This document shows positions 3,833-19,821 of a stretch of DNA of 49,796 nt, one piece after another. This stretch comes from an uncultured bacterium (GTDB lineage: Bacteria; Verrucomicrobiota; Kiritimatiellia; RFP12; UBA1067): positions 1 through 49,796 of the forward strand of contig CADCOC010000040.1 in assembly GCA_902802945.1 (NCBI GenBank). The letters run 5' to 3'. Each line of letters opens with the position of its first letter. Within the stretch, counting starts at the first letter, position 1. The position numbers were made by a program, and so were the translations under genes. The notes beneath the pieces are model-generated. The model ran no database searches. It was not told the origin of the DNA and saw nothing but the letters and a program-made list of their open reading frames with translations.

Positions 3833-5641
3833 TCAGCATCCACCGCCGCATGATCCAACAAACTTCACGGCCCATGCGCCGACGTTCCGTATCACGGCCG
3901 TACCGTACGGCACACCGTCGACAACGACGCCGCTCACGTTTGCCTTCAGTTTTCTGGTTTTGCCACCATCTGTTACATAGACGTTAAACGTACCCTTGAA
4001 CGTGCCGTCCTTGGGCTTGAACGTCACCTTTAGATCCGTCACGCCCTTCGTGCCAGTCCACTTGTTACGCGCAACGGAAATCATGTCGTCCACAGGGGAT
4101 ACGGCCACGGGCTTGCCGCCGATTCCTGCCGCAGAGTTAAAGTCATTGATCGACAGGTACATTGGCGAAGGAACACCGCCAGCGCCGGAAGTCGCCGAGA
4201 ACACGACGTTCGACGACCATGTGGCCGTGAACTTGGCGGGGAGTCCCGTGGCGTTCCAGGCGGAGAGGCCCGTCACGGACGACAGTCGCCCATTGGCAAA
4301 TTCAAGCATGAACGAATAGGCACCCCGCTTCTCCACCACCGGAACGAACGCCTTGCCGTTCTCGCCCATGACCGCCTGCGCGGAGACGCTGACTTTGTTG
4401 CCATTGCCCAACGTGCCCGTCACCTTGACCTTACCCTTGTTCCCGACTGTCGCGGACAATCCCGAGTAACCGTTGGCAAACGCGCTTCCGCCGTTCTTCT
4501 CCGTCGTGAAGACGATTGGCCAAAAGCCCTTCGCCAATGTTGTAGCGCGGGACTTCGCCTTCTCGTCCCTCGCCGAGAACACGTTGCGCCCGCCTTGAAT
4601 CGAATACGATCTGCCGTCGGCGTCTTTATAGTAACCGACGAGTCCATCTGCGCCAAGCTTGACGCTTGCCGTTGCCGCCGACCCCGCCTTAGTAAGTGTG
4701 AACACCTTGTTCGTGCTCGGCGTTTCCGCCTCTCCAGTCAACTTGACCTTGGTCCCCGTGCGCATCGTGAAGGTGGCTGTCAACTTGGAAAGCCCGGTCC
4801 TCCTGTTTGCCTTAGCAGACTTGAGGGTGACCGTCCCTGCCAATTTCCCCGTGTTGCCGTCCGCAATCCACCCCTGGTACTGCGTTGCCACCGTTCCCTG
4901 AAGACCTCCTTCAGTTGGGTTCTCGAACAGTCCGCCGCCGTCTTCGTTTCGCAGGGTTTCAAGGCCTCCGATCACGAAGTCGATCGCCTCCTCGTCGGAG
5001 ACTGCAGACATCTGATACCATGCCCGCGGGAACGCCACACGACCAACTTCGCTTCCGTCGGAACGGAACATGACCATCGTCGGGTAGGCGATCTTGTGGA
5101 GATCCATCGTCCCGCCACCCAGTCGGCCGATAACGTCAACTATGCTCCCCGGCAGGGCCAGCGCATCCTGGTAATCATATAGTTTCTGGATAACGGCAAG
5201 ACCCTCCTCGGCCGTCAGGCCGTTCTTGGACAGGTAGTCTGGATCGTACAGCCAACACTTGAACCCCCAGCCGTCGCCCAGAGGACTTGTCCCTTTCCAT
5301 TCCTGTCCCTCCGGAACGGGGAAGCGGTAGGGATAGTCGCTTTCAACTAGATAGTAGCCCGCCTTGGCTACATAGTCAGACCAAGCCTGCGATGTGAGGA
5401 CCTTCGTCTCGCACGTCTGGCAAATCGGGCACCACCACGAACCCGTGAAAAGGACAATGGTGTATGCAAGATCGGCCTTCGCTTTGGCAAAGGCCGCCTC
5501 ACGATCCATCGTCCACTCACCGACCTCCGCACCGCTCCAGCGCGGGCAAATCGCTGGGCGTGTCACATTATATTCAAACGCATACACGCCAGAACCTGAC
5601 AGTCCAACGGTCACTGCCAGGGCAAGCAGAACTTTTTTCAT
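3833..5641 (-). CDS. Secreted thioredoxin-fold protein with beta-module repeats and CGGGC tail (copy 1)
   Basis: This is a 602-residue exported protein. Residues 1-21 are a signal peptide. A thioredoxin-like domain follows with active site WWCPIC (Cys71, Cys74) and a cis-Pro motif AYPTMVMF. The rest is beta-rich, Gly/Lys/Thr-rich modules, including GKVKVTGTLGNGNKVSVSA and a final GTFKGTFNVYV module. The last residues are CGGGC. The motif GEWTMDREAAFAKAK before the active site recurs in the other three thioredoxin proteins here. ATG 5641 has GGAG upstream. It lies 25 bases after the small module protein. It probably acts on thiols outside the cytoplasm; substrate and direction (oxidant, reductant or isomerase) are unknown. 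Confidence 0.8.
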   Translation of the reverse strand: MKKVLLALAVTVGLSGSGVYAFEYNVTRPAICPRWSGAEVGEWTMDREAAFAKAKADLAYTIVLFTGSWWCPICQTCETKVLTSQAWSDYVAKAGYYLVESDYPYRFPVPEGQEWKGTSPLGDGWGFKCWLYDPDYLSKNGLTAEEGLAVIQKLYDYQDALALPGSIVDVIGRLGGGTMDLHKIAYPTMVMFRSDGSEVGRVAFPRAWYQMSAVSDEEAIDFVIGGLETLRNEDGGGLFENPTEGGLQGTVATQYQGWIADGNTGKLAGTVTLKSAKANRRTGLSKLTATFTMRTGTKVKLTGEAETPSTNKVFTLTKAGSAATASVKLGADGLVGYYKDADGRSYSIQGGRNVFSARDEKAKSRATTLAKGFWPIVFTTEKNGGSAFANGYSGLSATVGNKGKVKVTGTLGNGNKVSVSAQAVMGENGKAFVPVVEKRGAYSFMLEFANGRLSSVTGLSAWNATGLPAKFTATWSSNVVFSATSGAGGVPSPMYLSINDFNSAAGIGGKPVAVSPVDDMISVARNKWTGTKGVTDLKVTFKPKDGTFKGTFNVYVTDGGKTRKLKANVSGVVVDGVPYGTAVIRNVGAWAVKFVGSCGGGC

Positions 5642-5666
5642 TTGAACTCTCCTAGCGCGCCGACTG

Positions 5667-6197
5667 CTATTCGATGATTGCGGTCGTGACCACCTTCTTC
5701 TTGATGGTGACATTCATGCTGCCGCCCAACTTGCCGGAGAACTTGGCCGTGTACGTCTTCAACTTCTTCTCGCTCTTGGCCACATAGACCTTGAACGAGC
5801 CGCTGACGGTGCCTTTCTTCTTGTTGTACTTGACGCTCAGGCCGCTGGGGTTGTCCGAATCCTTCTTGTCTACGAACCCCTCTTCCTTCTTGCTGTACTT
5901 GACCTTCCCCGCCTTCGGCGCCTTCAGCTTCTTGCCAGTCCACTCCAGACCAACGCCATCTGGCAGAAACTCCGTCAGGACTTCATATCCGCCGATTTCA
6001 TCTGGGAAGTCATCCTCAAACGTAAACTCATATTCATAATCCTGATCCATGTCCTGATCCTGATCCTGTTCCTCCGACGCCCCGTTATTGCGCGAGCTGG
6101 AATACCCCCCACTGTCAGATGAATTGAGGGTCAAGCCATGGCACATGAAAACAGCCGCCGCTGCAAACACAGCACAGGTAATCTTTTTGATCATCAT
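5667..6197 (-). CDS. Small secreted protein carrying one C-terminal beta module
   Basis: This 176-residue protein has a signal peptide (MMIKKITCAVFAAAAVFM), then a Ser/Asp/Gln-rich linker (EEQDQDQDMDQDYEYEF), then a Lys-rich beta module. The module segment LSVKYNKKKGTVSGSFKVYV aligns by eye with the last module of both flanking thioredoxin proteins (LKVTFKPKDGTFKGTFNVYV in copy 1). It has no thioredoxin domain, so it looks like a free-standing copy of their C-terminal domain. AAGGAG lies just before ATG 6197; ATG 6194 is an equally possible start. It sits between the two CGGGC-tailed thioredoxin genes in one likely operon. Function is unknown. Confidence 0.75.
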   Translation of the reverse strand: MMIKKITCAVFAAAAVFMCHGLTLNSSDSGGYSSSRNNGASEEQDQDQDMDQDYEYEFTFEDDFPDEIGGYEVLTEFLPDGVGLEWTGKKLKAPKAGKVKYSKKEEGFVDKKDSDNPSGLSVKYNKKKGTVSGSFKVYVAKSEKKLKTYTAKFSGKLGGSMNVTIKKKVVTTAIIE

Positions 6198-6259
6198 TTT
6201 TTTTCTCCTTTTTTGGGTTATGGGAAATTCGACAAATACAAACTTACGGGCGCAAGCAG

Positions 6260-8077
6260 TCAGCAACCTCCTCCGCACAATGCCGCGAGCTTGACCGACC
6301 ACGAAGCCGTGTCCTTGATTACGGCCGTACCATACGGCACGCCGTCAACGACAATTCCAGAAACCTTCGCCTTCTTTTTCCTAATTCGTTCACCGTGCTT
6401 GACGTAGACATTGAAAGATCCCTTAAAGGTGCCGTTTTTCGGATAATACGTCACTTTTAGATCCGAGACCCCCTTTGTTCCCGTCCACTTCCTGCCATTC
6501 AACATCACGGCGTCATTTGCCGGCGAGACGGCAATGGCCATTCCGCCTATTTCAGCGGAATCGTCGAAATCGCCAAGTCTCAGGTACATCGTATCAGGCA
6601 TTGCCCCCGTACCGGTGGCTGCGCCCAGTGCGGCGTATGGAGACCACTTTGCGGATGCCGTAACCGACTTCCATCCGGAAACGCCCGTGATGGCGGAAAG
6701 TTCCCAGTTGTCGAATTCCAGCATCATCGAAAAAGCGCCTTTCTTGCCGATGACGGGCACCAGCACCTTGCCCCCCTCGCCCATCAGAACCTGCGACGAC
6801 ACGGAAACACGGCTGCCGTCTCCGAGAAAACCGACTATCTTGACCTTGCCCTTAGCGGCCGTGGCGACAGAAAACGCCGAGTAGCCTTCGGCCAGTGCAT
6901 TGACTGTGCTCCCATCATTCATCAGTGCAAAAGTCCAGAAACCTTTCTTCAGTGTGCTGGCGCGGGCCTTGGCCGCCTCATCCCTTCCCTTGAATGGGTT
7001 CCGGGCACCCTGCACAAGGTAGTTAACCTTCCCATCCGAATATGAACCGGAAAAACCCTCTGCGCCGATTGTCACCGTGGCGGCAACAGGGGAATCGGCC
7101 TTCTTCAGACTGATCACTTCTCCTTCCGCGCCACCTGCGATTCCCTTCACAGTGGCCGTCCGGCCGTCTGCCATCTTGACGTGCCCCGTCACCTTGATGA
7201 CGCCAGAGATTCTGTCACGCTTGGCCGTCTTGAATGTCGCAGTTCCCACCGGCACGCCATTTGAGTCCATCAGAACCCCATCGTATGTCTGCGCCGTAGA
7301 GCCTTCAATTCCACCGGCACCCGGTCTTTCGAACAACTCGCTGCGCCCGACGGCCTTGATGGTCTCGATGTTTCCAATGACATAGCCAAGACCATCCTCG
7401 GGGGGCATCGTCAAGCTGTACTCAAACCGCCCGATTTCTTTGCCGTCCGGCGAGATGACGATGATCGTCGGGAACCCGATGCGGCGGTAGACGGTCGTCG
7501 GGTTCTCCGCATAAACCGCGAGGTTAGTCTTCGTCCCATCGGCTGAAATCTCCACGAGTACGTTGTTGTTCGTCGCCGTGGCACCATTCTGGGCATGCAT
7601 CAGATCCTGGAACTCGAAACGCTTGACGTATTCATCGGCGATCTGCTGCGGAGTCCAGTCGCCGATGCCGTTTGCCGCTCGGTAAGCGGGATCCCACAGC
7701 CAAGTCCACATCGAATGCCCGTCACGGAAGGGGAAGTCGAGCGCGGCAAGGTAATATCCCTGACGGGCGGCATAGTCCTTGAATTCGTCCTTGACAAGGA
7801 TCTCGTCCAGTGCCTGGCAGTGCGGACACCACCAGAACCCCGCGAAAAGAAGAAGCGTGTACTTGCCTTCGGACTTTGCCTTCTCCAAGGCACCCTCGTA
7901 GTTGAACGTCCACTCCCCGGCATTCGTCTCGCTCCATCGCGGCACAAGGGCGGAAGGACCGAATCTATAGGGATAGGCGTCCGGCTGGGAGTTGAACTCC
8001 CAGTCGGCCTTCGCCGTCATCACGACCGCCGAAGCGAGCGCGACAACAACCACCATATCACGAATAGACCTCTTCAC
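6260..8077 (-). CDS. Secreted thioredoxin-fold protein with beta-module repeats and CGGGC tail (copy 2)
   Basis: This 605-residue protein is a paralogue of the product at 3833-5641. It has a signal peptide (residues about 1-24), a thioredoxin-like domain with FWWCPHC (Cys84, Cys87), and a cis-Pro motif GFPTIIVI. The beta modules include GKVKIVGFLGDGSRVSVSS and GTFKGSFNVYV, and the C-terminus is CGGGC. The CPHC dipeptide is the one found in DsbA-type oxidases, but the rest does not look like DsbA. The shared segment GEWTFNYEGALEKAK precedes the active site. It is probably the first gene of an operon with the small module protein and copy 1; a TATACT -10 lies at 8116-8121. Confidence 0.8.
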   Translation of the reverse strand: MKRSIRDMVVVVALASAVVMTAKADWEFNSQPDAYPYRFGPSALVPRWSETNAGEWTFNYEGALEKAKSEGKYTLLLFAGFWWCPHCQALDEILVKDEFKDYAARQGYYLAALDFPFRDGHSMWTWLWDPAYRAANGIGDWTPQQIADEYVKRFEFQDLMHAQNGATATNNNVLVEISADGTKTNLAVYAENPTTVYRRIGFPTIIVISPDGKEIGRFEYSLTMPPEDGLGYVIGNIETIKAVGRSELFERPGAGGIEGSTAQTYDGVLMDSNGVPVGTATFKTAKRDRISGVIKVTGHVKMADGRTATVKGIAGGAEGEVISLKKADSPVAATVTIGAEGFSGSYSDGKVNYLVQGARNPFKGRDEAAKARASTLKKGFWTFALMNDGSTVNALAEGYSAFSVATAAKGKVKIVGFLGDGSRVSVSSQVLMGEGGKVLVPVIGKKGAFSMMLEFDNWELSAITGVSGWKSVTASAKWSPYAALGAATGTGAMPDTMYLRLGDFDDSAEIGGMAIAVSPANDAVMLNGRKWTGTKGVSDLKVTYYPKNGTFKGSFNVYVKHGERIRKKKAKVSGIVVDGVPYGTAVIKDTASWSVKLAALCGGGC

Positions 8078-8115
8078 GGTTGCAACTCACTAAACATTTT
8101 CGCGTTGCGCCGCAT

Positions 8116-8121
8116 AGTATA
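8116..8121 (-). promoter_or_regulatory. Probable -10 element for the thioredoxin copy 2 operon
   Basis: On the minus strand TATACT is preceded by TTTTTTGG, 38 bases upstream of ATG 8077. No good -35 is seen, so it may work as an extended -10. It resembles the -10 regions upstream of several other operons in the window. Confidence 0.45.
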
Positions 8122-8163
8122 CCAAAAAACTTTACCGCTAGTGCCATAAATTATTTTTATTTT

Positions 8164-8199
8164 CGGAAATCGTATTTCCCGATGACGTCACTCGTCATC
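8164..8199 (-). terminator. Possible terminator hairpins after the helical-repeat gene
   Basis: Two adjacent hairpins sit at the end of the gene. GATGACG/CGTCATC (8181-8199) has the stop codon in its loop, and GGAAAT/ATTTCC lies at 8165-8179. The bases after them on the minus strand are A-rich rather than T-rich, so intrinsic termination is uncertain. Confidence 0.3.
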
Positions 8200-8994
8200 A
8201 TCTGGCGGCTTATAGTTATCCTGTAGCCATTGCTCGGCGGCATCCACTCCCGCCCACTTCTCACCGGTAATGCTTTCGTATGTGTCCTGGGCTGCCTCAA
8301 CGGCCAACTTGTTGTCGCCCTCGATCACGTTGACAAGAACCTGTAGCGCCGCCACCTCGTCCATTCCAATGAGTTCGTTGGCCACGTCCTCCAGCAAGTC
8401 CTTGTTCCGGAGCGAATTGAGCGACATCTCGACAATCCCCGCCTTCTCTCCGTCGTCCGACATCTCCTGAAGGGCGTCCTTCCAATGGTCTGCGGCCTTC
8501 TCCGCCACATCTTCGTTCGCATCGGACATGAACGGCGTGAGTTCAGCCATCGCCGCTTCGCCAAACCAGCCTAGCGCATCGATCACCATCTCCTTCAACT
8601 CCGCATTGTTGCTATTCAGCGCCGTCTTCGCGAGGCTTCGCGCGCCCTCCAGATCGTCATTCTCGATAGCCGCCGCAGCTGCGGCCATGATCTTCTGGTC
8701 GGCGGGCGGATATGGCTTGCCGTCGCTGTCGCGGTAAATCTCATCTCCGTCAGCTGCGCCAATTCGGACAGACTTGAGAGCTCCCTTCCTGTCCTTCTCG
8801 GCCTTTCCGGAACTCTTTGACGCCGTCGGGTACTTGACCGCGCTCTTAGTCGCGTTTTTCTGCACAAGATAGGCCTTCCGCTCGACCTTGTCCCCCTTTT
8901 CTCCTCTCAAAAAGAGGTAAGCCACGCCAGCCGCCACAGCCACAGCCACAGCCACAACGGCAATCAGTTTTTTCGTCCGCGCCCGCATTTTCAT
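8188..8994 (-). CDS. Membrane-anchored helical-repeat (HEAT-like) protein
   Basis: This 268-residue protein has a basic N-terminus and one membrane segment (LIAVVAVAVAVAAGVAYLFL), then a Lys/Ser-rich linker. From about residue 85 it is Ala/Glu/Leu-rich helices with HEAT-like spacing (ELKEMVIDALGWFGE, DVAEKAADHWKDAL, LEDVANELIGMDE), ending in an acidic tail. It probably faces the periplasm and serves as a scaffold or tethering protein. Its ATG overlaps the stop of the upstream ligase-like gene (ATGA), so translation is coupled. I do not recognise a named family. The alternative start ATG 8988 removes only two residues. Confidence 0.75.
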   Translation of the reverse strand: MKMRARTKKLIAVVAVAVAVAAGVAYLFLRGEKGDKVERKAYLVQKNATKSAVKYPTASKSSGKAEKDRKGALKSVRIGAADGDEIYRDSDGKPYPPADQKIMAAAAAAIENDDLEGARSLAKTALNSNNAELKEMVIDALGWFGEAAMAELTPFMSDANEDVAEKAADHWKDALQEMSDDGEKAGIVEMSLNSLRNKDLLEDVANELIGMDEVAALQVLVNVIEGDNKLAVEAAQDTYESITGEKWAGVDAAEQWLQDNYKPPDDDE

Positions 8995-10781
8995 TCAGTT
9001 CCTTTCTTGAAGACGTAGTCCGACAAAATCAGCCCTACCCAGCCGGGCAGATACACCTCGGCCCCCTCGATCTGCACGACATCGCCTGAGTCTTCCAGAT
9101 TCCCGTACACGTTCTCGTAACGCGCGGCGAACTCGCCAACCACAAACGCGAACGTGCATGACTTGCGCAGATCCTCGGGTATTTCGGCAATCGGCATGCC
9201 GGGCGAGAGGAAAATCAGCTCTTGCGCCTTCGGAGCGCCTCCCTCCTTCCAGAGCCTTACGTATTCCCGGCACAAATTGCCGGCCACCGCAAGCCTGTGG
9301 ACCCGGGACGGCACATCGGTCAACCTCTGCACATATCCCAAGGCCCTCGCCAGGGGATAGGCCGAATAGAAATACCTGATCTCCTTCGGGGCGTTGAGAT
9401 ACCCAAGTGTGTTCCTGTCGTCGGCGAACCAGATGTCCGGCTCGTGCGAACGCACGCAAACGCGCCTACCGTCGGAAAATACCGGCAATGTAGCACTACG
9501 CGACGGACCGCGTCCAGCAAGGTAAAAACCAGCGCAAATCAAGAGGGCGACGAAAGCAGCGGTGGCGGCCGGCAAGGCGTACCGGCGCAGCGCCCCCCAT
9601 GGGCGCGACGCGGCGAACGGCCACAGCGATGCAATGGGCAGCAGCCATAACGTCCACTGGTGCAGAACCGGGTTGAACATTGCGGCAACACCCAGCGCCG
9701 TGAACACGGCCAGCGGCAACGGCGAACCTCCTCCTGCGGCAAAGCGGAACAGCACAAACAGCATAAGGAGCCAGGCACACGCCCATGCGAAACGGCCAAT
9801 CCACCCGAAACCCGTCATGTACGTGAGATGGTCACTGTCGAGCGTAGGCGTAACCGCGAAGCTGGCAAGTGGTTGATACCAATCCATGTACGCCCGTCCC
9901 GCCGACGTCTCCCCCCATCCACTTGGAGAATCAACCATCATGCGCGGCACGTCTTTCCATTTCTCGAGACGGGACGAGGTGCTGCCGTCATCTATGGACT
10001 TGGCAGAGAGACGCCCCCCGAGCCCCGCACCGATGCAAAAGACCACAAGCGCAACCGCAGCCAGAGCGGACGTAACCGCCAGTCTCACCCGGCCGCCACG
10101 CCTGAAAAACCGAAACCCCATCAACAACGCAGCCCCAGCGGCAAAACCAAGGGCGCCGCCGCGTCCGTCCGTCATCACAAGAAGAACGGCTGCTACCACC
10201 GTCCCGACAGCCCCAGCCAAGATGACAACCTTCCTGTTGCCATACAAAAAAGCGAAGAGTCCAAGCAACGCCAAACCGGCAAGGAGCGCGGCGGCATGGT
10301 TGGGGTTCTCGTAAAACAACTTGAGACGGCCGTCTTGCCACTTTTTCGCAACCGCTTCACGTGCATCTTCCTCGGCTCCGTCCCACAACGGCGAAATCTT
10401 ACTCTGCATGACGGGCTTCTTTTCTGATTCAACGAGCCCCCGTCTGCCATCCGACGTCACAATCGAATACGGGCTTCCCTTGCGGAACGTGTAACTCGCA
10501 CGCCGTCCCGGCTCGCTGATGGTCACATCGCCGTTCGCCTCCATCTTCGCACGCCACCCGCCGGCACCATCAATCCCCCCAGTGCGCCAGTTTCTGCGGA
10601 ACTCCACCATCCCGGTTCCGGGCGCGTAAAGCCGAAAGAAGTTCGCACCGTCCATCGGGGCAAAATACATCCCGAAGAAACGGTTGACCTCCTCCTGTAC
10701 GCCCGAACTGACTTCACCATCAGAAGCCCCGAACGACACGGCAGCGAAAACCGCGCACGCAATGCAAAGGAAACGTCTCAT
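8991..10781 (-). CDS. O-antigen-ligase/polymerase-like membrane protein
   Basis: This 596-residue protein has a signal sequence, a soluble N-terminal part (about residues 20-150), a membrane half with several hydrophobic helices, and a soluble C-terminal part. ENPNHAAALLAGLALL and LVMTDGRGGALGF resemble the Wzy_C/O-antigen ligase core. So does the large loop with SRLEKWKDVPRMMVDSP and WGETSAGRAY. Such proteins transfer a lipid-linked glycan to lipid A core or to protein on the periplasmic side. It overlaps both neighbours by four bases and sits among exported thioredoxin genes rather than in the glycan locus. It may therefore glycosylate or anchor the exported proteins; that is inference. The soluble ends are not recognised. 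Confidence 0.72.
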   Translation of the reverse strand: MRRFLCIACAVFAAVSFGASDGEVSSGVQEEVNRFFGMYFAPMDGANFFRLYAPGTGMVEFRRNWRTGGIDGAGGWRAKMEANGDVTISEPGRRASYTFRKGSPYSIVTSDGRRGLVESEKKPVMQSKISPLWDGAEEDAREAVAKKWQDGRLKLFYENPNHAAALLAGLALLGLFAFLYGNRKVVILAGAVGTVVAAVLLVMTDGRGGALGFAAGAALLMGFRFFRRGGRVRLAVTSALAAVALVVFCIGAGLGGRLSAKSIDDGSTSSRLEKWKDVPRMMVDSPSGWGETSAGRAYMDWYQPLASFAVTPTLDSDHLTYMTGFGWIGRFAWACAWLLMLFVLFRFAAGGGSPLPLAVFTALGVAAMFNPVLHQWTLWLLPIASLWPFAASRPWGALRRYALPAATAAFVALLICAGFYLAGRGPSRSATLPVFSDGRRVCVRSHEPDIWFADDRNTLGYLNAPKEIRYFYSAYPLARALGYVQRLTDVPSRVHRLAVAGNLCREYVRLWKEGGAPKAQELIFLSPGMPIAEIPEDLRKSCTFAFVVGEFAARYENVYGNLEDSGDVVQIEGAEVYLPGWVGLILSDYVFKKGTE

Positions 10782-11206
10782 TTCTCTTCAATCCCAAATC
10801 CGCCCGAAACCGGAATCCGAATGTTGTCGGGCATGAGTACCTGCCAAGTGTTGTCCTCGTTCCGCATGAAACCAAGGCCTGGATATTCCAGCGAAAGATT
10901 CGTGATCGCCACGGAGAGAGCCCGCTGAAGCGCGCGCCGATCCATCTTCGCCGCGCTCACGGCGAGGGTACAACGCGTTTCGTTCGTCATGAGCTGAAAA
11001 TTGACGTCAGCGCCGTCAAGGCCGTCGAATCTTTTGCACGCATGCATGACAGCCGCAGCGAACGCGGACTTCCGCTCCAACGACGCCCCTCCCAGCGCCG
11101 CCATTTTCCGCTCCGGCGCCTGTCCCTGCTCCTTGCCGCCACATCCCGCACATACGGCAAGCAATGCAACCGCAAACATTAACGAAAAACAGCATGCAAT
11201 CCTCAC
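10778..11206 (-). CDS. Small probable lipoprotein
   Basis: This 142-residue protein starts with a short basic and hydrophobic segment ending in AVCAGC followed by GGKEQG, a plausible though not ideal lipobox. The mature part is mixed alpha/beta with no family I recognise. The start is GTG at 11206, supported by GGAGGT five bases before it; no better ATG is present. The stop overlaps the start of the ligase-like gene (ATGA), so the two are translationally coupled and the lipoprotein may work with the ligase. It would be anchored in the inner or outer membrane. Confidence 0.7.
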   Translation of the reverse strand: MRIACCFSLMFAVALLAVCAGCGGKEQGQAPERKMAALGGASLERKSAFAAAVMHACKRFDGLDGADVNFQLMTNETRCTLAVSAAKMDRRALQRALSVAITNLSLEYPGLGFMRNEDNTWQVLMPDNIRIPVSGGFGIEEK

Positions 11207-11242
11207 TTCACACCTCCGACAATCTTCATGCTAACTCCTTTG

Positions 11243-12784
11243 TCATTCCCATACGACATTCGTCCCCTCGTAGGGCGCGACCTCGCCCTGCGCACCTTCA
11301 GAGGCACCCCGGCTGATTCTCAGCACCGCCGTCAGGTAGTCCTTCGCCTTGACCTTGAAAATTGGGATGACGCAGCCTCCGTCTACGTCACGCATTGCGT
11401 ATGACGTGCCAGATATCCGTCTCCCGTTCCCCAACACGCCATTCCAGCTGACCTTTCCGGCGGCCGTGAGTTTCTTGATGTTGATGGATCCGCCGTCCGT
11501 CCCGCCGCCAGATGTCCCCGAAAGGCCAACGGCATACGCGCCCACAAATGCGGAGGCATGCGACCCAACGCCGATTTTCAACCCGCCGGGCGATTCCAAC
11601 GGCACGGACAGAGACGGATCCGTCAGCTCGGCCTTGATCAGCCCGTCGCTCGCAAGTTCAAGGACCAGCCTTTTGTCTCTAAAGACCAGAGCCGTCCGCG
11701 CCGTTCCGTCGTCAATGTCCGACCACGTCCCTGAAAACGTGGTCTTGGCCCGCGACAGGTTCATGTACTTCGCCCTGACCCTGTTGCGGGCCGTAGCGGA
11801 AAGCTCCAACACGCCGACCACCGCGCCACTGCCCGAAGACAAAAGCGGCACCGTTGCCTTGAACGCGCGGTCGAGCATGGCGCAGCCGCCATGCGACGCA
11901 TCGCTGGCGGACACCACGTTGAACGTCAGGGTGATTTCAGGGCCGGCAAACAGAACGCCGTTGCGCTTCTGCTGGATCGAGAAGACGTATGTGCTCGTCC
12001 CGGCCTTCTTTGTCTTCCCCGACAAGACCACCTTCCCGTCCACATATCTGAGCTTCACTCCCTGCGGAAGTTTTCCCGAAACCTTCTTGATGCTCGGCTT
12101 CGTATTTCCCTTAAGGTTGTAAACGGTCTGCGGAGCCAGAGCCCCCGCCGCGTCCAAGCCCGTAAATAGATCAATGTCATACGAAACCCGTGTCGTGACC
12201 GGATTCTGATAAAGCCACTCCGCCCTGGCGGAGATGTCTGGGGGCGACGAAAAATCGTATTCACCCACAACAGAGTTGATAGATCCGATCAGCTGCTCCG
12301 CAAGGGAACCTCCCTTGACTAGCATCTCGCCGTCGCGCCCGTTGAAGGCTCTGTAATATTCGCTGTCCTTCGCCGGAGCTGAACCGCTGCGGTTCCAGTA
12401 GACCGCCATGTACGGAAAACCGCTCGAACTCAGCGGCTTGGCGAATCCGGAAGCGTTGCCATTGCCATTGTGGGTCGTGAACACCATCAGCATCTTGTGG
12501 TCTTTCTGCCAGGCGAGGAAATCCTCCGTCAGACAGGCCCGCTGAAGGTCTTCACACTTGCCGCAGGAGAGCCCCCCGAAGAAAACCAGCAACGGGACGT
12601 GGTAGGCGTCAGCAACGGCGAGGGCACCCCCGAAATTGGAATTCCATTCTCCAAGGTTCAAGGCGCCCTTTGAAACCGGCAGCAAAGTGGCAGTCTGCGA
12701 AAGCGCCCCCACAGCCGTCCCGCACAGTGACAGGACGGCCGAGAAAAGCACACCAAGGGATTTCCCTTTGAAACACCACTTCAT
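11243..12784 (-). CDS. Secreted thioredoxin-fold protein with Ig-like and beta modules (copy 3)
   Basis: This 513-residue protein has a signal peptide (residues about 1-27). Its thioredoxin-like domain has active site LSCGKC (Cys74, Cys77) and a GFPYMAVY cis-Pro region. A putative Ig-like segment follows (GKLPQGVKLRYVDGKVVLSG). Then come beta modules, including GKVSWNGVLGNGRRISG, that match the LGNG-type modules of copies 1 and 2. The shared pre-active-site motif is LGEWNSNFGGALAVA. CGGC/CGKC-type sites are common in thioredoxin-related reductases, but function cannot be assigned. ATG 12784 has CGGAG upstream. It lies 24 bases after copy 4 and 36 bases before the lipoprotein gene, so it is likely mid-operon. 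Confidence 0.78.
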   Translation of the reverse strand: MKWCFKGKSLGVLFSAVLSLCGTAVGALSQTATLLPVSKGALNLGEWNSNFGGALAVADAYHVPLLVFFGGLSCGKCEDLQRACLTEDFLAWQKDHKMLMVFTTHNGNGNASGFAKPLSSSGFPYMAVYWNRSGSAPAKDSEYYRAFNGRDGEMLVKGGSLAEQLIGSINSVVGEYDFSSPPDISARAEWLYQNPVTTRVSYDIDLFTGLDAAGALAPQTVYNLKGNTKPSIKKVSGKLPQGVKLRYVDGKVVLSGKTKKAGTSTYVFSIQQKRNGVLFAGPEITLTFNVVSASDASHGGCAMLDRAFKATVPLLSSGSGAVVGVLELSATARNRVRAKYMNLSRAKTTFSGTWSDIDDGTARTALVFRDKRLVLELASDGLIKAELTDPSLSVPLESPGGLKIGVGSHASAFVGAYAVGLSGTSGGGTDGGSINIKKLTAAGKVSWNGVLGNGRRISGTSYAMRDVDGGCVIPIFKVKAKDYLTAVLRISRGASEGAQGEVAPYEGTNVVWE

Positions 12785-12808
12785 GTTCGACTCCGAAAAG
12801 ACTTTCGG

Positions 12809-15529
12809 TTATTCAACCTTGATGACAAAGGGTTCGCCACCCTGGGTGCCGCCGCCAAAAATCTTGGATTGGCCGCCAATTGCATACACGACGCCTGACG
12901 CCTTGTACGTCTTGCCGGCAATCCTGTATGAAACCTTGACCTGGCCCGTAGTGATGGAGCACGCAATTGTCTCATGGTTCCTGGTTGAGTTGAAGGAGGG
13001 CTTCTTGCCGGACACACCGAGCTTGAACGTGACGTCGCCACCTCCGAGAGAGACCATGCTCTTTCCGTTCAGTCCGGCGAACAAACCCTTGTTCCAGCGC
13101 GATCCCTCGACGCTATCAAAGACCTGCGAGCCAGACGTGGCGTGCCCGCCGATGCCGCCGTTGGCGAAAAGGACGCAGCCCACGTTGATACCCGTACGCG
13201 TTGAGGCGTGGCCGAACCGCACGTCCCCGTGACCGGCCCACCGCGGAAGATTTGCACGCACAAAAGACTCAGGGAACAGGGCGCAGAAACTTCCGCCGGC
13301 AATTTTCGTATTCTCGGAAATCCGCCCCTTGATAGAAACCTTTCCGGCATTGCCGACTTTCGCCGTCACCCAGCCGCCGAGCTTCTCGTTGGAAGATGAA
13401 GCCAGGGCCAAATTCCAGTTGCCTTTCCAGGACATACTGGGTTTGTCGACCGCCTTGCCGTAGACCCTATACCCAGAAGCCGTACCAGACCACATCTTTG
13501 ATCCGGTGTCGAAGGCCACGTCAAAGTCCGGCAGGCCGGTCGCGACATCCCCGTCTTTCTGGCTCGAAACCAACCCCTGCAACTTGGTCGTGACACCGCC
13601 CTTCAAGACACTGGCCGTCCACTTTCCCCTTGAAGAGAGCTTCAACTGACCAGACGCCACAATCTCGTCCTTGTCGTTGAAATAGTAAATGGCATACTTC
13701 CCGGTTGTATACGACTTCGGAAATTTCGTCACCTTCAATGTGAACGTCTTTGATGTTGTGCCGTAGTCGTTCTTCGCCGTAACGGTGACGGTCTGATCCT
13801 TGATAATCATGGGCGTACCCGTAATGACACCCGTCTTGGCGTCCATTTTCATCCCCTTGGGGAGGCCCGAGGCCGCATACGACACGTCGCCAACGCCGGA
13901 CGAATCGACCGACATGTCAATTGCCGAGCCGAACGATTTGTAGGCGGTAACCGTCAAGGGCTTGTTATCATAAGCCGGCAAGGCCGCCACTTTGAACTTG
14001 GAAGACGCCGTGCCGATGGCCTGGCCGAGCATGTCATTTGCGGAATAGGTCGCACGGACGCTCCATGTGTACTCCTTAGTTTCAGGATTCTTCGCCACTA
14101 ATCCGAGGTCAAGCGCGTTGCCTGATGTCGCCGAACCCATGTTCGTGGTCACACCACCGCAGGTCAGCGAGAAAGTGCATCCATCCCTATTAGCCCCCCA
14201 GGCTAGGTCCACGAGCGCATTCTTCTCCAACATCTCGCCGTATGAGATCTGCGCATTTGCCGCCGGCTTCGACAGCGTCACCGTGAGCGGCGTGAACGAG
14301 AATGTCTTGAAGCCCACAACCACGGCATCAGAGGCCCCCTCCGATGCCGAGGCCTTGAACGTTATTTTATCCCCGGCGGCAACGCCGAAGCGAACCGACT
14401 GGCCGGCAAGAAGGTTCTCCTTGTCTCCCTTTGAAGTCGTGCAGGCGATGCTCCCCCGCGTCGTGCCTAACGTAGCTGTCAGAACGCCACCAACGGACGC
14501 CGTGAACTCAAGCGTCGAATCGGACGATGTCACCGTCTCGAGCACGTTGCCGTCGTTCTGCGAGGGGACATACCATGTCCCACCCGCTGCGGACAATTTA
14601 TCAAGACCAGTATGAGCCGCCGCAAAATCTGCCAGCGACTGCTTTACGCGGGAATCCTTGAACGTCACTGTCTGGGATGAAGTTTCGTAGGAGATGTCCG
14701 ACTCCGTGAACCCGCTTGCGGCGATCTTGACCGTTAGGTCGTCGGAAACGATTCCGTTGAACGTGCTCGGCCCCTTCACCGTGAAGGTCTTCGTCCCGTC
14801 GTTCGAGTCCCATGTAAGCGAGCTTGTGCTCAGTTCGTAGAGCGACTTGTTGGCCCCCTCCAGCGAAATCCCAACGGATCCCGTCTTGCCGGATTTGCCC
14901 GAACGGGTCACGACACCCGTCCACACGCCCGCAGTCGGCGACTGAACCACCACGGTGTTGCTCGACTGCGCGGAAAGCGCGAAAATCGTCTTTTCGGCTT
15001 TTTTCGGCGCAAGGTTCGCAAGGGCCTCGTCAATGTATTGATAGAGGATCGGACCGCTTGAACCGACAGGACGCGATTTGTAGGACCAGACCGCATAGCG
15101 CGCGCCGTTGGGTTTGATCAGTACCACCTGCGGATACCCGTTATCACCTGACTGGTAGGCGTTGAAGTACGAGTCAAAGACCTTCTCCGAAACACCCCCG
15201 TATGCAGGCTCCCTCGGCGATGACCAATAGTTCAGGAGAACCATGTAGAACTGGTATTTCTTGACGAGGTTGGCAAAGTTCTCTGTGTTGAGTGTGTTGT
15301 TCACGAACTGCATGCAGTGCTGACATCCCTGGCCAGTGCTGCTGTCGTTGATCATCACAAGGAAAATCGGCAGATTCGTCGTCTTGGCCGCAGCCAACGC
15401 GCCCTCCATGTTGCTCGTCCACTTGTTGGGGACGACTTCCGTCGTACTCACGCGCGGCAGGACGGCAGCGACCGCCCCCGCTGTATACAGTGCAATTGCT
15501 AAGGCAATGCTTTTGACTATTGATTTCAT
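12809..15529 (-). CDS. Large secreted thioredoxin-fold protein with Ig-like and beta modules (copy 4)
   Basis: This 906-residue protein is the largest of the four. It has a signal peptide (residues about 1-22). Its thioredoxin-like domain has active site GQGCQHC (Cys69, Cys72), an insertion relative to copies 1-3, and a GYPQVVLI cis-Pro region. Several beta domains follow, including a putative-Ig segment (GLPKGMKMDAKTGVITG) and beta modules (GKYAIYYFNDKDEIVASG, then GNAGKVSIKGRIS). The pre-active-site motif is KWTSNMEGALAAAK. ATG 15529 has AAAGGT upstream. The protein may be displayed on the surface through its repeats. It sits 38 bases after the parvulin-like gene, which would fit a shared folding route. 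Confidence 0.78.
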   Translation of the reverse strand: MKSIVKSIALAIALYTAGAVAAVLPRVSTTEVVPNKWTSNMEGALAAAKTTNLPIFLVMINDSSTGQGCQHCMQFVNNTLNTENFANLVKKYQFYMVLLNYWSSPREPAYGGVSEKVFDSYFNAYQSGDNGYPQVVLIKPNGARYAVWSYKSRPVGSSGPILYQYIDEALANLAPKKAEKTIFALSAQSSNTVVVQSPTAGVWTGVVTRSGKSGKTGSVGISLEGANKSLYELSTSSLTWDSNDGTKTFTVKGPSTFNGIVSDDLTVKIAASGFTESDISYETSSQTVTFKDSRVKQSLADFAAAHTGLDKLSAAGGTWYVPSQNDGNVLETVTSSDSTLEFTASVGGVLTATLGTTRGSIACTTSKGDKENLLAGQSVRFGVAAGDKITFKASASEGASDAVVVGFKTFSFTPLTVTLSKPAANAQISYGEMLEKNALVDLAWGANRDGCTFSLTCGGVTTNMGSATSGNALDLGLVAKNPETKEYTWSVRATYSANDMLGQAIGTASSKFKVAALPAYDNKPLTVTAYKSFGSAIDMSVDSSGVGDVSYAASGLPKGMKMDAKTGVITGTPMIIKDQTVTVTAKNDYGTTSKTFTLKVTKFPKSYTTGKYAIYYFNDKDEIVASGQLKLSSRGKWTASVLKGGVTTKLQGLVSSQKDGDVATGLPDFDVAFDTGSKMWSGTASGYRVYGKAVDKPSMSWKGNWNLALASSSNEKLGGWVTAKVGNAGKVSIKGRISENTKIAGGSFCALFPESFVRANLPRWAGHGDVRFGHASTRTGINVGCVLFANGGIGGHATSGSQVFDSVEGSRWNKGLFAGLNGKSMVSLGGGDVTFKLGVSGKKPSFNSTRNHETIACSITTGQVKVSYRIAGKTYKASGVVYAIGGQSKIFGGGTQGGEPFVIKVE

Positions 15530-15567
15530 TTTGACCTTTCTTTCTTAAAAAACATTTTCTTGAAAAC

Positions 15568-16779
15568 TCACTTCACCCTCTTTATCCTCATTCGCTTTTT
15601 TGAGGGATCAGACGGCTCCCACAATGGGATCTTGCACTCAACTTTTGCCTTTGCAAGAAGCTCGTGGAATTTCATCTTCGTGACGGCCTTCATCTTGATC
15701 TCCTTGATTCGCTCTCTCGCCTGCTCGGGAGAGAGCTCAGGCTGAAGCATGTCCTTCTCAAGCAAAATCTCCGCAATCTCTACCGACACCTCGCCGTCCT
15801 GTTCAGCCGAGCCGTTGCGCTTCAACAACTGTACGATGCGCCATGCATCCGGCGTCTCGACAATGCCGCTCATCTCACCTTCCTTCAAGTTGGCGAGGGC
15901 ATCCTCAACGGCCTTTGGAAGCTCCCCCTCCGCAAAGCGCGCCGGGTGTTCGTCTGTTCCGTCCATCATCACCCCGCGCGTCGCGGAACTTTCACCGTCA
16001 CTCCATTGCTCCGCAGCGTCGCCGAAGTCCATTCCACCCCTCAACTTACCGAGGATGTCCGCCGCAAGAGCCCTCTTGTACAAATTCGTTTCAACGACGG
16101 CGGTATTGTTGGAATGAACAATCCCCATCATCTGCCTTATCTCCGCCTCATTCGTCTCGGTCATGGGGAGAAGCACCTGTTTCTGGTACGCCTGACTGTA
16201 AAGGGCGTTCGTCAGATTGTGCTCGTAAAACGATTCGCCGCTGTTAATCAAATTCAACATCACCTTGCCGAGTTCACCCCGCTTCCCCCATTCCGCGCGC
16301 GCCCTCGCACGATACTCGGCAAATTTCTCCGGGGCGACAGTTACCCCCTCTCGACGCGCCTCAGCTGCAACTAAAGTATATTCTATGTATTCCTTGAGAA
16401 GTTTGCGCACCCGTGACTGGAACATGATAGAACGAAGGGCTGCATTCCCCTCCATCTGCATCTCCGATCGTTCAATGCCCGCGCACAATGCGTCGACATG
16501 CCGCCGCAGCAACCCCCATTTCAGCGCATCACGACCATCTATCTCCACTAGAATCTCATCGTCTTTGAGTTCCTTGAGCATCTGCTCGGTACTCTTCTCC
16601 TTCTTCTTTCCCTTCCCTGACGATTCCTTCCCCGTGATTGAGACGACATTTTCACCCGAAGTCTGCGCTTTTTGAAATGCCCTTGAAATCCCTTTTGAGC
16701 CATCAACTGCCGTCTCAGCACCAAGCAAAGGGTAAAGCGAAAATAATGCCGCGAAAAGATATCCTAGGCAACTTCTCAT
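15568..16779 (-). CDS. Exported parvulin-like peptidyl-prolyl isomerase (SurA/PrsA type)
   Basis: This 403-residue protein has an N-terminal signal segment (MRSCLGYLFAALFSLYPLLG), a Lys-rich linker, a helical SurA-like chaperone region, and a PpiC-like domain. The PpiC-like segments are ILGKLRGGMDFGDAAEQWSDG, then FAEGELPKAVEDALANLKEG and VETPDAWRIVQLL. Such proteins help outer-membrane or secreted proteins fold. I start it at ATG 16779; the frame is open further upstream, but that part runs through the terminator at 16804-16841. It appears to head the operon continuing into thioredoxin copies 4 and 3, the lipoprotein, the ligase-like protein and the helical-repeat protein. Confidence 0.8.
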   Translation of the reverse strand: MRSCLGYLFAALFSLYPLLGAETAVDGSKGISRAFQKAQTSGENVVSITGKESSGKGKKKEKSTEQMLKELKDDEILVEIDGRDALKWGLLRRHVDALCAGIERSEMQMEGNAALRSIMFQSRVRKLLKEYIEYTLVAAEARREGVTVAPEKFAEYRARARAEWGKRGELGKVMLNLINSGESFYEHNLTNALYSQAYQKQVLLPMTETNEAEIRQMMGIVHSNNTAVVETNLYKRALAADILGKLRGGMDFGDAAEQWSDGESSATRGVMMDGTDEHPARFAEGELPKAVEDALANLKEGEMSGIVETPDAWRIVQLLKRNGSAEQDGEVSVEIAEILLEKDMLQPELSPEQARERIKEIKMKAVTKMKFHELLAKAKVECKIPLWEPSDPSKKRMRIKRVK

Positions 16780-16803
16780 TTTTGATGGCTTTCTTTTTTT
16801 CAT

Positions 16804-16841
16804 AAAAAAACAAGCGGGATAGAGAAGATTCTCCACCCCGC
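16804..16841 (-). terminator. Intrinsic terminator of the Cys-rich protein gene
   Basis: On the minus strand 13-base arms (16841-16829 and 16826-16814) form a G+C-rich stem starting GCGGGG, with two G-U pairs, followed directly by GTTTTTTT. It lies about 50 bases after the Cys-rich gene and just before the parvulin-like gene, so it separates the two or attenuates read-through. Confidence 0.8.
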
Positions 16842-16891
16842 CTGCTCTGTACGTCATTTTACGTACACTCTATCAATCCTTTCGGAATGAC

Positions 16892-17683
16892 TTACTCATC
16901 GTCGTCGCTAGCGAACTTGACACCAGCAATCTTCTGAGCGCCCGCGTCGGTCGTGACCTTCTTCTGGTACACAGCCTTCCACGTGCCGCCGAAGATGTCC
17001 GTATCAGGGCAGTCGCACATGAAGCAGTTCTCTTCGTTGACGCACGGATAGATGCCGACGAACCAGCCCTTGTAGGTCTTGGGCGTGAAGATCGGATCGC
17101 AGCCCGTCTCAGACTTGACGCAGTAGGCGTTCTTCGTCTTGAGGGACGTGACCTTCATATCGACCTTGCCGAACGCGGCAGCCCAGAACGCGAACTCTTC
17201 GAGATCAACGTCGCCATCCGTCTCGGCCTCCTCGGAGACCACGAAGAGAGCGGAATCAAGGCAGACGCTCTTGCCAGGCTTGATGCTGGTTTCCCAGTTA
17301 CGAGCCTTATCGAGGTTCTTGCCGAACACCGACCAGACGACCAGATCAACGGGAGCCGCGAGAGCAAAGGTCTTCTTGCCGGCCTTGATCGTGGCATAGA
17401 AATAACCACCATCATAGCAGCAGAAACCCGTGGTTTCGCAGATGGTTCCCGTGAGCGAGAGCGCGCCCTTCTTGATCTTGAGCGTGTCAACCGTCTTGTA
17501 GTCGCCCTTGTCAACGACAGCCTTGCCCGAGCCCGTCACCTTGAACACGACCGTGGGGCAAGGACCCTGGTCAGGACCACCAGCTCCGCAGTTCTCGCAA
17601 ACCACGGGGTTGAGTGACGTGCCAGCAGCACTGCCGACAACAGTAATTGCCGCAGCAGCGGCAGCAATCATGAACTTCTTCAT
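16892..17683 (-). CDS. Cysteine-rich secreted protein
   Basis: This 263-residue protein has a clear signal peptide (MKKFMIAAAAAAITVVGSAAG). The mature part is rich in Cys, many in close pairs: CENCG, then CETTGFCCYDGG, SVCLDS, YCVKSETGCDP and NCFMCDCPD. It has beta segments and an acidic SDDDE end. GGTWKAVYQKK near the end recalls the beta modules of the neighbouring thioredoxin proteins. An AAGGA site precedes ATG 17683; an earlier in-frame ATG at 17716 would add a polar tail before the signal peptide and is less likely. The many Cys make it a plausible client of the thioredoxin-fold proteins. Its own promoter, long leader and terminator suggest independent expression. No known family was recognised. 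Confidence 0.75.
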   Translation of the reverse strand: MKKFMIAAAAAAITVVGSAAGTSLNPVVCENCGAGGPDQGPCPTVVFKVTGSGKAVVDKGDYKTVDTLKIKKGALSLTGTICETTGFCCYDGGYFYATIKAGKKTFALAAPVDLVVWSVFGKNLDKARNWETSIKPGKSVCLDSALFVVSEEAETDGDVDLEEFAFWAAAFGKVDMKVTSLKTKNAYCVKSETGCDPIFTPKTYKGWFVGIYPCVNEENCFMCDCPDTDIFGGTWKAVYQKKVTTDAGAQKIAGVKFASDDDE

Positions 17684-18029: not shown

Positions 18030-18437
18030 TTAGCCACGCAAACGCTCCGCAAGAAGAGTGGAACTTGTCCCCTGCGTGTATGGGAAATAGACCACCTCGA
18101 CGCCGACGGCCTTGAGTTTCGCCTCCACTTCGTTGTACATCGCGCTGCCCTTCCAGTCGTTGCCGTGGAACAACCGGTTGAAATGCAATGCCTCCCATGC
18201 GGCGAACTTGTCCATGCTCGTCTGCGGCACGACTTCGTCCACGTAGCGGATCGCCTTCACGATCGCAACACGCTCCGCGTACGGAACGATGGGCGGGTGC
18301 TTCTTGTAGCTGATTACCACCTCGTCCGTGGAAACGCCCACGATCAGCCGGTCGCATTGCTCGCGCGCGCGCATGAGCAAGTTGAGATGCCCGACGTGGA
18401 ACATGTCGAACACGCCCGTGGTGTAGCCAACGATCAT
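18030..18437 (-). CDS. tagD: Glycerol-3-phosphate cytidylyltransferase-like protein (TagD family, copy 1)
   Basis: This 135-residue protein activates an alcohol phosphate with CTP; in TagD the product is CDP-glycerol. It has the nucleotidyltransferase HxGH motif (HVGH at 14-17) and a C-terminal TQGTSSTLL that matches the family's RTxGxSTT motif. The length fits TagD (about 130 residues). Its ATG overlaps the licD stop by four bases, so it is the last gene of a tightly coupled set. A longer open frame upstream in the same frame is only the licD gene read out of frame. The true substrate could be glycerol phosphate, choline phosphate or another alcohol phosphate. Confidence 0.88.
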   Translation of the reverse strand: MIVGYTTGVFDMFHVGHLNLLMRAREQCDRLIVGVSTDEVVISYKKHPPIVPYAERVAIVKAIRYVDEVVPQTSMDKFAAWEALHFNRLFHGNDWKGSAMYNEVEAKLKAVGVEVVYFPYTQGTSSTLLAERLRG

Positions 18438-19387
18438 GACGCCCCCTCCCCGTACCGCTTGAGGAACTTCCGAATCGCCAGCGCCTTCTCCATGTTGAAG
18501 CGCGACGCAGGATGGTGCGGCTTGAGACGCCCCGGCCAGCCGGCCCAGTCGCCGTAGTTGTAGGTGAGCACGGTCTCCGGGTCGTTCGGCACCATCACGT
18601 CCACGCCCTCGAACGTCGCGGGCTTGAGCGGGAAGATGTCGTCGTAGTCGTACACCGCCTCCTTCACCCAGTCGGGCGTCATGAACTCGATGCCGCGCAG
18701 CACGGCCGGCTTCGACTCTGGCGGCGCGGAGTCCTTCCCGTCCATGATCCACTCGCGGCGCGCGGAATCCAGCGCGGCACGGTGCGCCGCGTCGTCCGCC
18801 TGCGGATCGAACCGCGCCGCGTTGCGCTCCTGCGCATCCTTGACCTTCATGAAGAGCGCGTGCTTCTCCTTCAAGGTCGGCAGCGGGCTGTGATAGAGGT
18901 CGTAAGACATCACGGACGACGTGATGTCCTTCGGCAGATCCCGGTGCGACACCTTGATCTGGTTCCACTTGCGCGAGAATCTCCGCCATGCGTAGTAGCC
19001 CTCTCGACACTTCTTGTTGAACACCTCGCAGAAGCGGTCGTACTCGTCGCGGAGCATCCCCTGGTCCACGTCGTCGTCCCACGGCACGAACTTCCCGCCG
19101 TGGCGCACCGTCCCGAGCAGGCTCCCGCTGATCGTCCACGGATGGAACCCGTTCTCGCGCGCAACGCGCAGCACTTCCTTCAGAAGTACCACGCCCGCGA
19201 GCTGCACGTCGCGCGCGTAGCCGCGCGCCGGCGGCATGTTCCCGACGTCAGCCATGGTCAGCAGTTCGCGGCGCAGCAGCTGCGCCTGCAGCGACAGACC
19301 CGGCTCGTCCGCGCTCCTGCACACGCGTACGCCGCAGAACCGCGTGACAAGACGCCCCTTCTCATACTTGCGGCTGATCAGGCTCAT
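18434..19387 (-). CDS. LicD-family phosphotransferase
   Basis: This 317-residue protein has the LicD core: ISGSLLGTVRHGGKF then VPWDDDVDQGM, with the DDDVD metal-binding acids at 104-108. LicD-family enzymes transfer phosphocholine or related phospho-alcohols from a CDP-activated donor to a surface glycan, in the cytoplasm. It overlaps both flanking cytidylyltransferase genes by four bases, so donor synthesis and transfer appear to be made together. The C-terminal region (FPLKPATFEGVDVMVPNDPE and YGDWAGWP) is also typical of the family. The transferred group cannot be deduced, but the TagD partners favour phosphoglycerol-like or phosphocholine-like donors. Confidence 0.88.
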   Translation of the reverse strand: MSLISRKYEKGRLVTRFCGVRVCRSADEPGLSLQAQLLRRELLTMADVGNMPPARGYARDVQLAGVVLLKEVLRVARENGFHPWTISGSLLGTVRHGGKFVPWDDDVDQGMLRDEYDRFCEVFNKKCREGYYAWRRFSRKWNQIKVSHRDLPKDITSSVMSYDLYHSPLPTLKEKHALFMKVKDAQERNAARFDPQADDAAHRAALDSARREWIMDGKDSAPPESKPAVLRGIEFMTPDWVKEAVYDYDDIFPLKPATFEGVDVMVPNDPETVLTYNYGDWAGWPGRLKPHHPASRFNMEKALAIRKFLKRYGEGAS

Positions 19388-19821
19388 GCGTCCACCCCAC
19401 CTTCGCGCAACTTCTTCAGCGTGGCCGAGAGCAGCGTGGAACTCGTCCCCTTCGTGCGCGGGAAGTACACCACGCGCACGCCGACGGTCGCGAACTTCGC
19501 CTCCATCTCCTTCCAGCTCGGCGTGTTGAACCAGTCGTCCCCGACGAACAGTACGTCAAAGTGCAGTTTCTCCCACATCTTGAACTTGTCGAGGTCGTCC
19601 TGCGGAATCGCCGCGTCCACGTACTTGATGGAGCGCACGATCTCAAGTCGTTCCTGGAACGGAATGACGGCCCGCTTGTGCTTGTAGGCCACAAGCTCGT
19701 CGACGGATACGCCGACGATCAGCTTGTCGCACAACCCCTTCGCGTTCTTGAGGAGGTTGAGGTGCCCGATATGGAAGAGGTCGTAGACCCCGCTCGTGTA
19801 ACCGATTATTGTTCTGCTCAT
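19384..19821 (-). CDS. tagD: Glycerol-3-phosphate cytidylyltransferase-like protein (TagD family, copy 2)
   Basis: This 145-residue paralogue of the product at 18030-18437 has HIGH at 17-20, WFNTPSWKEMEAKF, and RTKGTSSTLL near the C-terminus, which is a better match to the RTxGxSTT motif than copy 1. It overlaps the licD start by four bases. A promoter-like TTTGCG, 17 bases, TATACT lies just upstream. Two cytidylyltransferases either side of one LicD suggests two different CDP-alcohols, or recent duplication; the two proteins differ at many positions, which argues against a very recent copy. Confidence 0.88.
   Translation of the reverse strand: MSRTIIGYTSGVYDLFHIGHLNLLKNAKGLCDKLIVGVSVDELVAYKHKRAVIPFQERLEIVRSIKYVDAAIPQDDLDKFKMWEKLHFDVLFVGDDWFNTPSWKEMEAKFATVGVRVVYFPRTKGTSSTLLSATLKKLREGGVDA

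Follow-up and report, generated by a model that had tools for sequence, protein, structure and literature searches.

Four exported proteins with a thioredoxin (Trx) domain are encoded close together in the genome of an uncultured bacterium of the Kiritimatiellia (lineage RFP12; UBA1067), and the question raised by this locus is whether they and their neighbours form one envelope thiol system, as a sequence-only reading had proposed. The window analysed here is a stretch of 49,796 nucleotides (contig CADCOC010000040.1) from a genome of 5.8 Mb in 300 contigs. Comparison with related genomes revealed that the genes for an exported cysteine-rich protein (CysR), a parvulin (Parv) and an exported CxxC Trx protein form a conserved gene neighbourhood. 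The gene set is real, conserved and apparently undescribed, and the biochemistry of each of its parts is of known kinds; a literature search, incomplete in coverage, found no paper joining these parts.

Conservation of the gene cluster

Ten co-oriented genes occupy positions 3833-17683 of the minus strand; read downwards from 17683 they are CysR (gene start 17683), Parv, TrxD, TrxC, Lipo, Wzy, HEAT, TrxB, Mod and TrxA (gene start 5641). Intergenic gaps within the cluster are at most about 110 bases, with 4-base overlaps at Lipo/Wzy and Wzy/HEAT, and the cluster is likely to be transcribed as one unit. Scans of the cluster for promoters and terminators gave nothing above the level of shuffled sequence or chance.

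Each gene family was located with profiles of its own, and synteny was counted around 43 strong CysR genes from about 39 genomes, 41 of these genes having a co-oriented downstream gene in the available DNA. CysR matches were almost the sole criterion for picking the second and third sets of loci; therefore linkage to Trx and parvulin genes was not presupposed. A parvulin gene follows CysR immediately in 35 of the 41 cases, and in 34 the distance from CysR to a Trx gene is four genes or fewer. The order CysR > Parv > Trx was seen in nearly every examined locus, in several genera, and large proteins of 1,000-1,900 residues with Calx-beta or immunoglobulin (Ig)-like domains are often interposed in the clusters. 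Wzy was found within eight genes downstream of CysR in 15 of the 41, and HEAT in 20, both being undercounted at contig ends. Whether the gene set stays together in related genomes had been set beforehand as a test that could refute the proposal, and together it stays.

The distribution of the cluster is narrow. CysR was detected in 37 of 288 sampled genomes of the class, in one family and weakly in one sister family, so that the scope first envisaged, the whole Planctomycetes-Verrucomicrobia-Chlamydiae (PVC) group, was too broad. A sister-family locus (L113) has the order CysR > Parv > HEAT. Close relatives in the CysR family originate from rumen.

Two classes of Trx domain

The features ascribed to the four Trx proteins from sequence can all be read in them. 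TrxA, TrxB, TrxC and TrxD have, respectively, a signal peptide and GEW segment (GEWTMDREAAFAKAK, GEWTFNYEGALEKAK, GEWNSNFGGALAVAD and NKWTSNMEGALAAAK), a CxxC motif (CPIC, CPHC, CGKC and CQHC) and a cis-Pro-type loop (IAYPT, IGFPT, SGFPY and NGYPQ). Thioredoxin_7 (PF13899) matches them with E values of 0.037, 3e-6, 8e-4 and 9e-5; the gathering cut-off is passed by TrxB alone (27.7 versus 27 bits), with TrxA, TrxC and TrxD below it. The DsbH model NF043050 scores 30.6 bits (3e-7) with TrxA, 41.2 bits (2e-10) with TrxB and 17 bits with TrxD, all far below its 190-bit cut-off. The further claim of beta-rich tails shared by four paralogues survives in part: TrxA and TrxB are paralogous over their full length (41% identity) and the free module Mod weakly shares their tail, whereas TrxC and TrxD resemble the others by sequence in the Trx domain alone (the first ~130 residues). 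TrxA and TrxB make up one class of the four and TrxC and TrxD another, with different tails. TrxD contains an Ig-like domain of the He_PIG family. Roughly a dozen further open reading frames (ORFs) of the same genome, mostly large, contain the terminal tail module, which is therefore not specific to the cluster.

Conservation of the CxxC among orthologues was the second test named in advance, and none of the 72 Trx cores taken from related loci has lost the motif; one profile match without it (in locus L088) had been excluded from the 72 as an unconvincing Trx domain. Since the list of matches from the source genome itself took in ordinary Thioredoxin_7 proteins, claims about the cluster rest only on loci having the cluster. 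Many of the cores carry the active-site dipeptides of DsbA (PH), PDI (GH), DsbC (GY) or DsbG (PY), and CGPC was not found among the 72. Two classes of core can be distinguished. Class 1 has GEWN.NF and small residues ahead of GCxxC, or is TrxD-like, and fills 32 of the 34 'first' Trx positions past the parvulin; class 2, with GEWTMD and WWCPxC, stands further downstream in 12 of its 14 in-cluster members.

Structure prediction yielded a Trx fold for TrxB. The model, built from 11 sequences, has an overall predicted local distance difference test score (pLDDT) of 57, with ~70-90 in the Trx core and, behind the core, a barrel predicted with fair confidence. Its Trx domain aligned with DsbH (2ju5; Z 10.9, 3.8 Å, 113 residues, 26% identity) and with AGR2/AGR3 (Z ~10). 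The eight-strand barrel (residues 231-338) aligned with NHBA (5o1r; Z 11.2), fHbp (Z 11.0) and TbpB (Z 8.5), but designed barrels also reach Z 9.4, so the match shows a shared arrangement only.

A second cysteine pair at the extreme C-terminus

One feature lies beyond those in the sequence-only reading. TrxB has four cysteines in total, at positions 84 and 87 (CPHC) and 601 and 605 (terminal CGGGC), counted from the GTG start. An extreme C-terminal pair was present in all 12 class-2 proteins of ~600 residues, which come from at least two genera and are as little as 29% identical, and in 1 of 596 other ORFs longer than 150 residues in the loci. The pair varies in form (CGGGC, CKGGC, CGSCSE, CGSCSD, CGSCND, CAACDE and CDACED), and the only invariant cysteines in the class-2 alignment are these two and those of the CxxC.

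In thioredoxin reductase and mercuric reductase a C-terminal tail bears an additional redox pair, and an internal relay is therefore the natural reading of the pair in TrxA and TrxB. The terminal cysteines, on a short tail, probably swap disulfides with WWCPxC, which would give a two-step internal relay linking the Trx domain to its partner. The terminal cysteines may alternatively be used for anchoring or cross-linking.

The cysteine-rich protein

CysR has a signal peptide, and its family a median of 10 cysteines. Cysteine content is 3.5%, compared with 1.1% in other exported-like ORFs (about threefold), and at three alignment columns cysteine is found in 43 of 43 sequences, these being mutually related. 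No member of the family matches Pfam (OmcA/OmcB included) or PDB. The idea that CysR is another tail-type barrel was rejected, as profile comparison showed no similarity. Nearly every genome with CysR has a single copy of it, and none was found on plasmids; in one genome (L140, G275:C1) two divergent cluster copies and an additional CysR gene adjoin one another.

At the C-terminus of a 723-residue protein of another genome (L109, positions 7073-9241 of G015:C19) stands a second CysR module, joined to thioester (PF08341, 1.2e-6) and SpaA (PF17802, 7e-15) domains. Two parvulin genes come after the gene for this protein, and the bacterium is presumably Gram-negative. The protein is the only thioester protein among 40 relatives, a single case; the fusion suggests that CysR is a surface module.

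Parvulin, ligase-like protein and other companions

The companions listed from sequence are all present: parvulin, O-antigen-ligase-like protein, HEAT-like protein, cysteine-rich exported protein, lipoprotein and free module. Parv matches PF00639 (3.7e-11); most of its relatives have the lipobox of a lipoprotein, and none is evident here. The helical-repeat match of HEAT (1.2e-4) is below cut-off. Wzy matches PF04932 (1.8e-14; 54.2 versus a 31.7-bit cut-off), and its residues R207, R271 and H318, invariant in 28 of 28 homologues, make up the Arg/Arg/His set that is catalytic in WaaL-type ligases. Like the O-antigen ligases and PEP O-glycosylation ligases of this family, it has the Wzy_C domain with invariant Arg and His; it differs in having an exported domain in place of the N-terminal helices, an extra C-terminal domain and linkage to Trx genes. 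A crude hydropathy scan found about six hydrophobic segments beyond the signal peptide, short of the usual 10-12 membrane helices. Wzy_C proteins of the cluster type are confined to the bacterial family that has CysR (17 of 59).

On contig C106 the same genome encodes a second Wzy_C paralogue (L086, 4608-11291, minus strand), in a locus conserved elsewhere (L094, L095, L098, L100, L101 and L102). Its partners there are an alpha/beta-hydrolase-like protein, a 90-residue cysteine-containing peptide with a twin-arginine-like leader, a radical SAM/SPASM enzyme nearest, below cut-offs, to ranthipeptide and quinohemoprotein maturases, and a 378-residue protein. The locus possibly ties peptide maturation to a glycan ligase-like protein.

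Candidate redox partners

A DsbD-type membrane protein (PF02683, E 4.6e-25) is encoded on contig C79 of the genome, unlinked to the cluster, and the DsbD_TM family is present in this genome and in 33 of 36 relatives. Thioredoxin_4 (PF13462) had no match in the genome; DsbA PF01323, DsbB and VKOR were not searched for. The Trx proteins here share with the Dsb systems (DsbA/DsbB and DsbC/DsbG/DsbD) export, the CxxC and the kinds of dipeptide, as well as a DsbD-type protein in the genome; unlike in those systems, they sit in one dedicated cluster with a fixed cysteine-rich companion and a foldase.

MauE is absent from the window and is present on another contig of this genome, fused to a GEW-type Trx domain. 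There, two GEW-type Trx genes adjoin (L089 on C60, 3541-6700), the second encoding the MauE-Trx fusion with InlB-like repeats. Within the cluster MauE was found only in G001, where it is fused to Trx, and G008. In methylamine dehydrogenase maturation, MauE, named there alongside MauD, has been speculated to act in disulfide formation (PMC7794033); the likeness here consists of the fusion with the same GEW segment and the two in-cluster genes, whereas most CysR genomes, and the present cluster, are without MauE. As a core redox partner MauE was tried and rejected: the first sample suggested that it co-occurs with CysR, at 13/2 versus 0/6 (p = 5e-4), but the class-wide one did not bear this out, at 13/35 versus 2/20 (Fisher p = 0.057).

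What the cluster may do

We give a probability of about one half to the reading that the cluster serves envelope assembly and is specific to this lineage, acting as a folding and disulfide system dedicated to CysR and associated large exported proteins. The gene set is a good candidate for a so far undescribed means of making or upkeeping a cell surface stabilised by disulfides. CysR would be exported and require disulfides, with the parvulin as its dedicated foldase. The class-1 Trx proteins and the class-2 Trx-barrel proteins would make, shuffle or keep open the cysteine pairs of CysR and the large exported proteins, and the Wzy_C protein may move glycan onto exported products or a surface polymer. 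Electrons could pass via DsbD/CcdA or, in some genomes, via a MauE-Trx membrane protein. The envelope thiol system proposed earlier is well supported as a genomic association; its action on the cysteine-rich protein and its redox direction are what we infer.

Several observations weigh against this assembly reading. Many clusters are without Wzy and HEAT, and the longer class-2 proteins are without the C-terminal pair. The structure model of CysR, from three sequences, has a pLDDT of 39, too poor for a structure search. MauE occurs in 13 of the family's 35 genomes with CysR, compared with 2 of about 20 lacking CysR, and is common in the class (124 of 288 genomes); being common, and missing from many CysR genomes, it is accessory and not required. 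DsbH, the nearest solved relative of the Trx proteins, has been described as a reducing enzyme (PMC5193440). The step to function was moreover taken from gene linkage.

A fuller picture, which we put forward as speculation and think improbable as a whole, would have CysR as the subunit from which a surface layer or fibre of an undescribed kind, stabilised by disulfides, is built. Its own parvulin would fold CysR, Trx proteins with an internal relay from the Trx domain to the C-terminal dithiol would oxidise or proofread it, Wzy_C would glycosylate it, and in some strains a thioester adhesin with a CysR module would form the tip. Cysteine-rich exported proteins are likewise found in the chlamydial outer membrane complex (OmcA/OmcB), which is held by disulfides and served by Dsb-type enzymes; CysR has no resemblance to their Pfam families.

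The Trx-beta proteins could instead reside at the surface or be released, their CxxC aimed at outside thiols of plant, host or rival cells and CysR being a partner or an adhesive fibre. Long beta-rich tails, the Ig, Calx-beta and InlB-like repeats of relatives, a barrel like those of the surface lipoproteins NHBA, fHbp and TbpB, and the single fusion of a CysR module with a thioester adhesin are all consistent with this location, but a lipobox is absent from TrxA and TrxB and no surface-export gene was identified (the SLAM search had no responding positive control), and we consider it rather unlikely.

We also doubt that the cluster is a reducing or repair system, in which the Trx proteins, fed by DsbD/CcdA, would keep exported cysteine proteins reduced, as proposed for chlamydial DsbH. 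DsbH comes from a PVC group with a cysteine-rich envelope (PMC5193440, PMC6752827), provides the best named matches of the Trx proteins and, like them, is exported and has a CxxC with the same helix ahead of the active site; the DsbD_TM family, present in this genome and most relatives, would suit such a role. The proteins here, however, are ~450 residues longer, with a beta-barrel tail and a C-terminal cysteine pair, they score 17-41 bits against a cut-off of 190, and they are clustered with CysR, parvulin and Wzy_C. DsbD is general and unlinked to the cluster, and the dipeptides are mostly oxidase/isomerase-like. With DsbH described as reducing and the dipeptides here leaning towards oxidases and isomerases, the thiol chemistry may be oxidation, isomerisation or reduction. 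A generic surface-protein island, with Trx domains as one module among several and no shared function, would accommodate the tail module in many other large ORFs and the large variable proteins inserted in the cluster, but synteny makes it very unlikely, CysR being single-copy nearly throughout, the CysR-Parv-Trx order kept and the CxxC invariant.

If the assembly reading is true, an uncultured PVC lineage would possess a well-delimited system for building its envelope, in which candidates for substrate, foldase and thiol enzymes can be named; the second, extreme C-terminal cysteine pair of its Trx proteins predicts a particular mechanism. The reading also touches the question whether envelopes held by disulfides, as in Chlamydia, extend more widely in the PVC group.

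Gene list and neighbouring genes

Table 1. Genes of the cluster, in gene order, with positions in the window.
Gene	Position	Strand	Product
CysR	16892..17683	-	Exported cysteine-rich protein, 263 residues, 13 cysteines; first gene of the cluster; without Pfam family
Parv	15568..16857	-	Exported parvulin-type peptidyl-prolyl isomerase; PF00639
TrxD	12809..15529	-	Exported Trx domain (CQHC), long beta-rich tail and He_PIG domain; 906 residues; first Trx past the parvulin
TrxC	11243..12784	-	Exported Trx domain (CGKC) and beta-rich tail; 513 residues
Lipo	10778..11206	-	Small lipoprotein adjoining Wzy; homologue adjoins Wzy in L156 too
Wzy	8991..10781	-	O-antigen-ligase-like (Wzy_C) membrane protein; exported N-terminal domain replaces the usual first helices
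HEAT	8188..8994	-	Helical-repeat protein, membrane-anchored
TrxB	6260..8077	-	Exported class-2 Trx (WWCPHC), TbpB/NHBA-like barrel, C-terminal CGGGC
Mod	5667..6197	-	Exported free-standing tail-module protein, 176 residues
TrxA	3833..5641	-	Exported class-2 Trx (WWCPIC), tail as in TrxB, C-terminal CGGGC

Directly past TrxA, an aminopeptidase-N-like gene (1226-3793, minus strand) adjoins the cluster, as it does in L014 and L047; this arrangement was not seen in more distant relatives. Upstream of the cluster, a LicD-family gene stands between two cytidylyltransferase-like genes (18033-19821, minus strand), a grouping which suggests that a surface glycan carries decorations of the phosphocholine or glycerol type. 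Elsewhere in the window, an ORF of 2,758 residues (29340-37613, minus strand) carries a Laminin_G_3 domain and, close to its end, a GDSL lipase domain.

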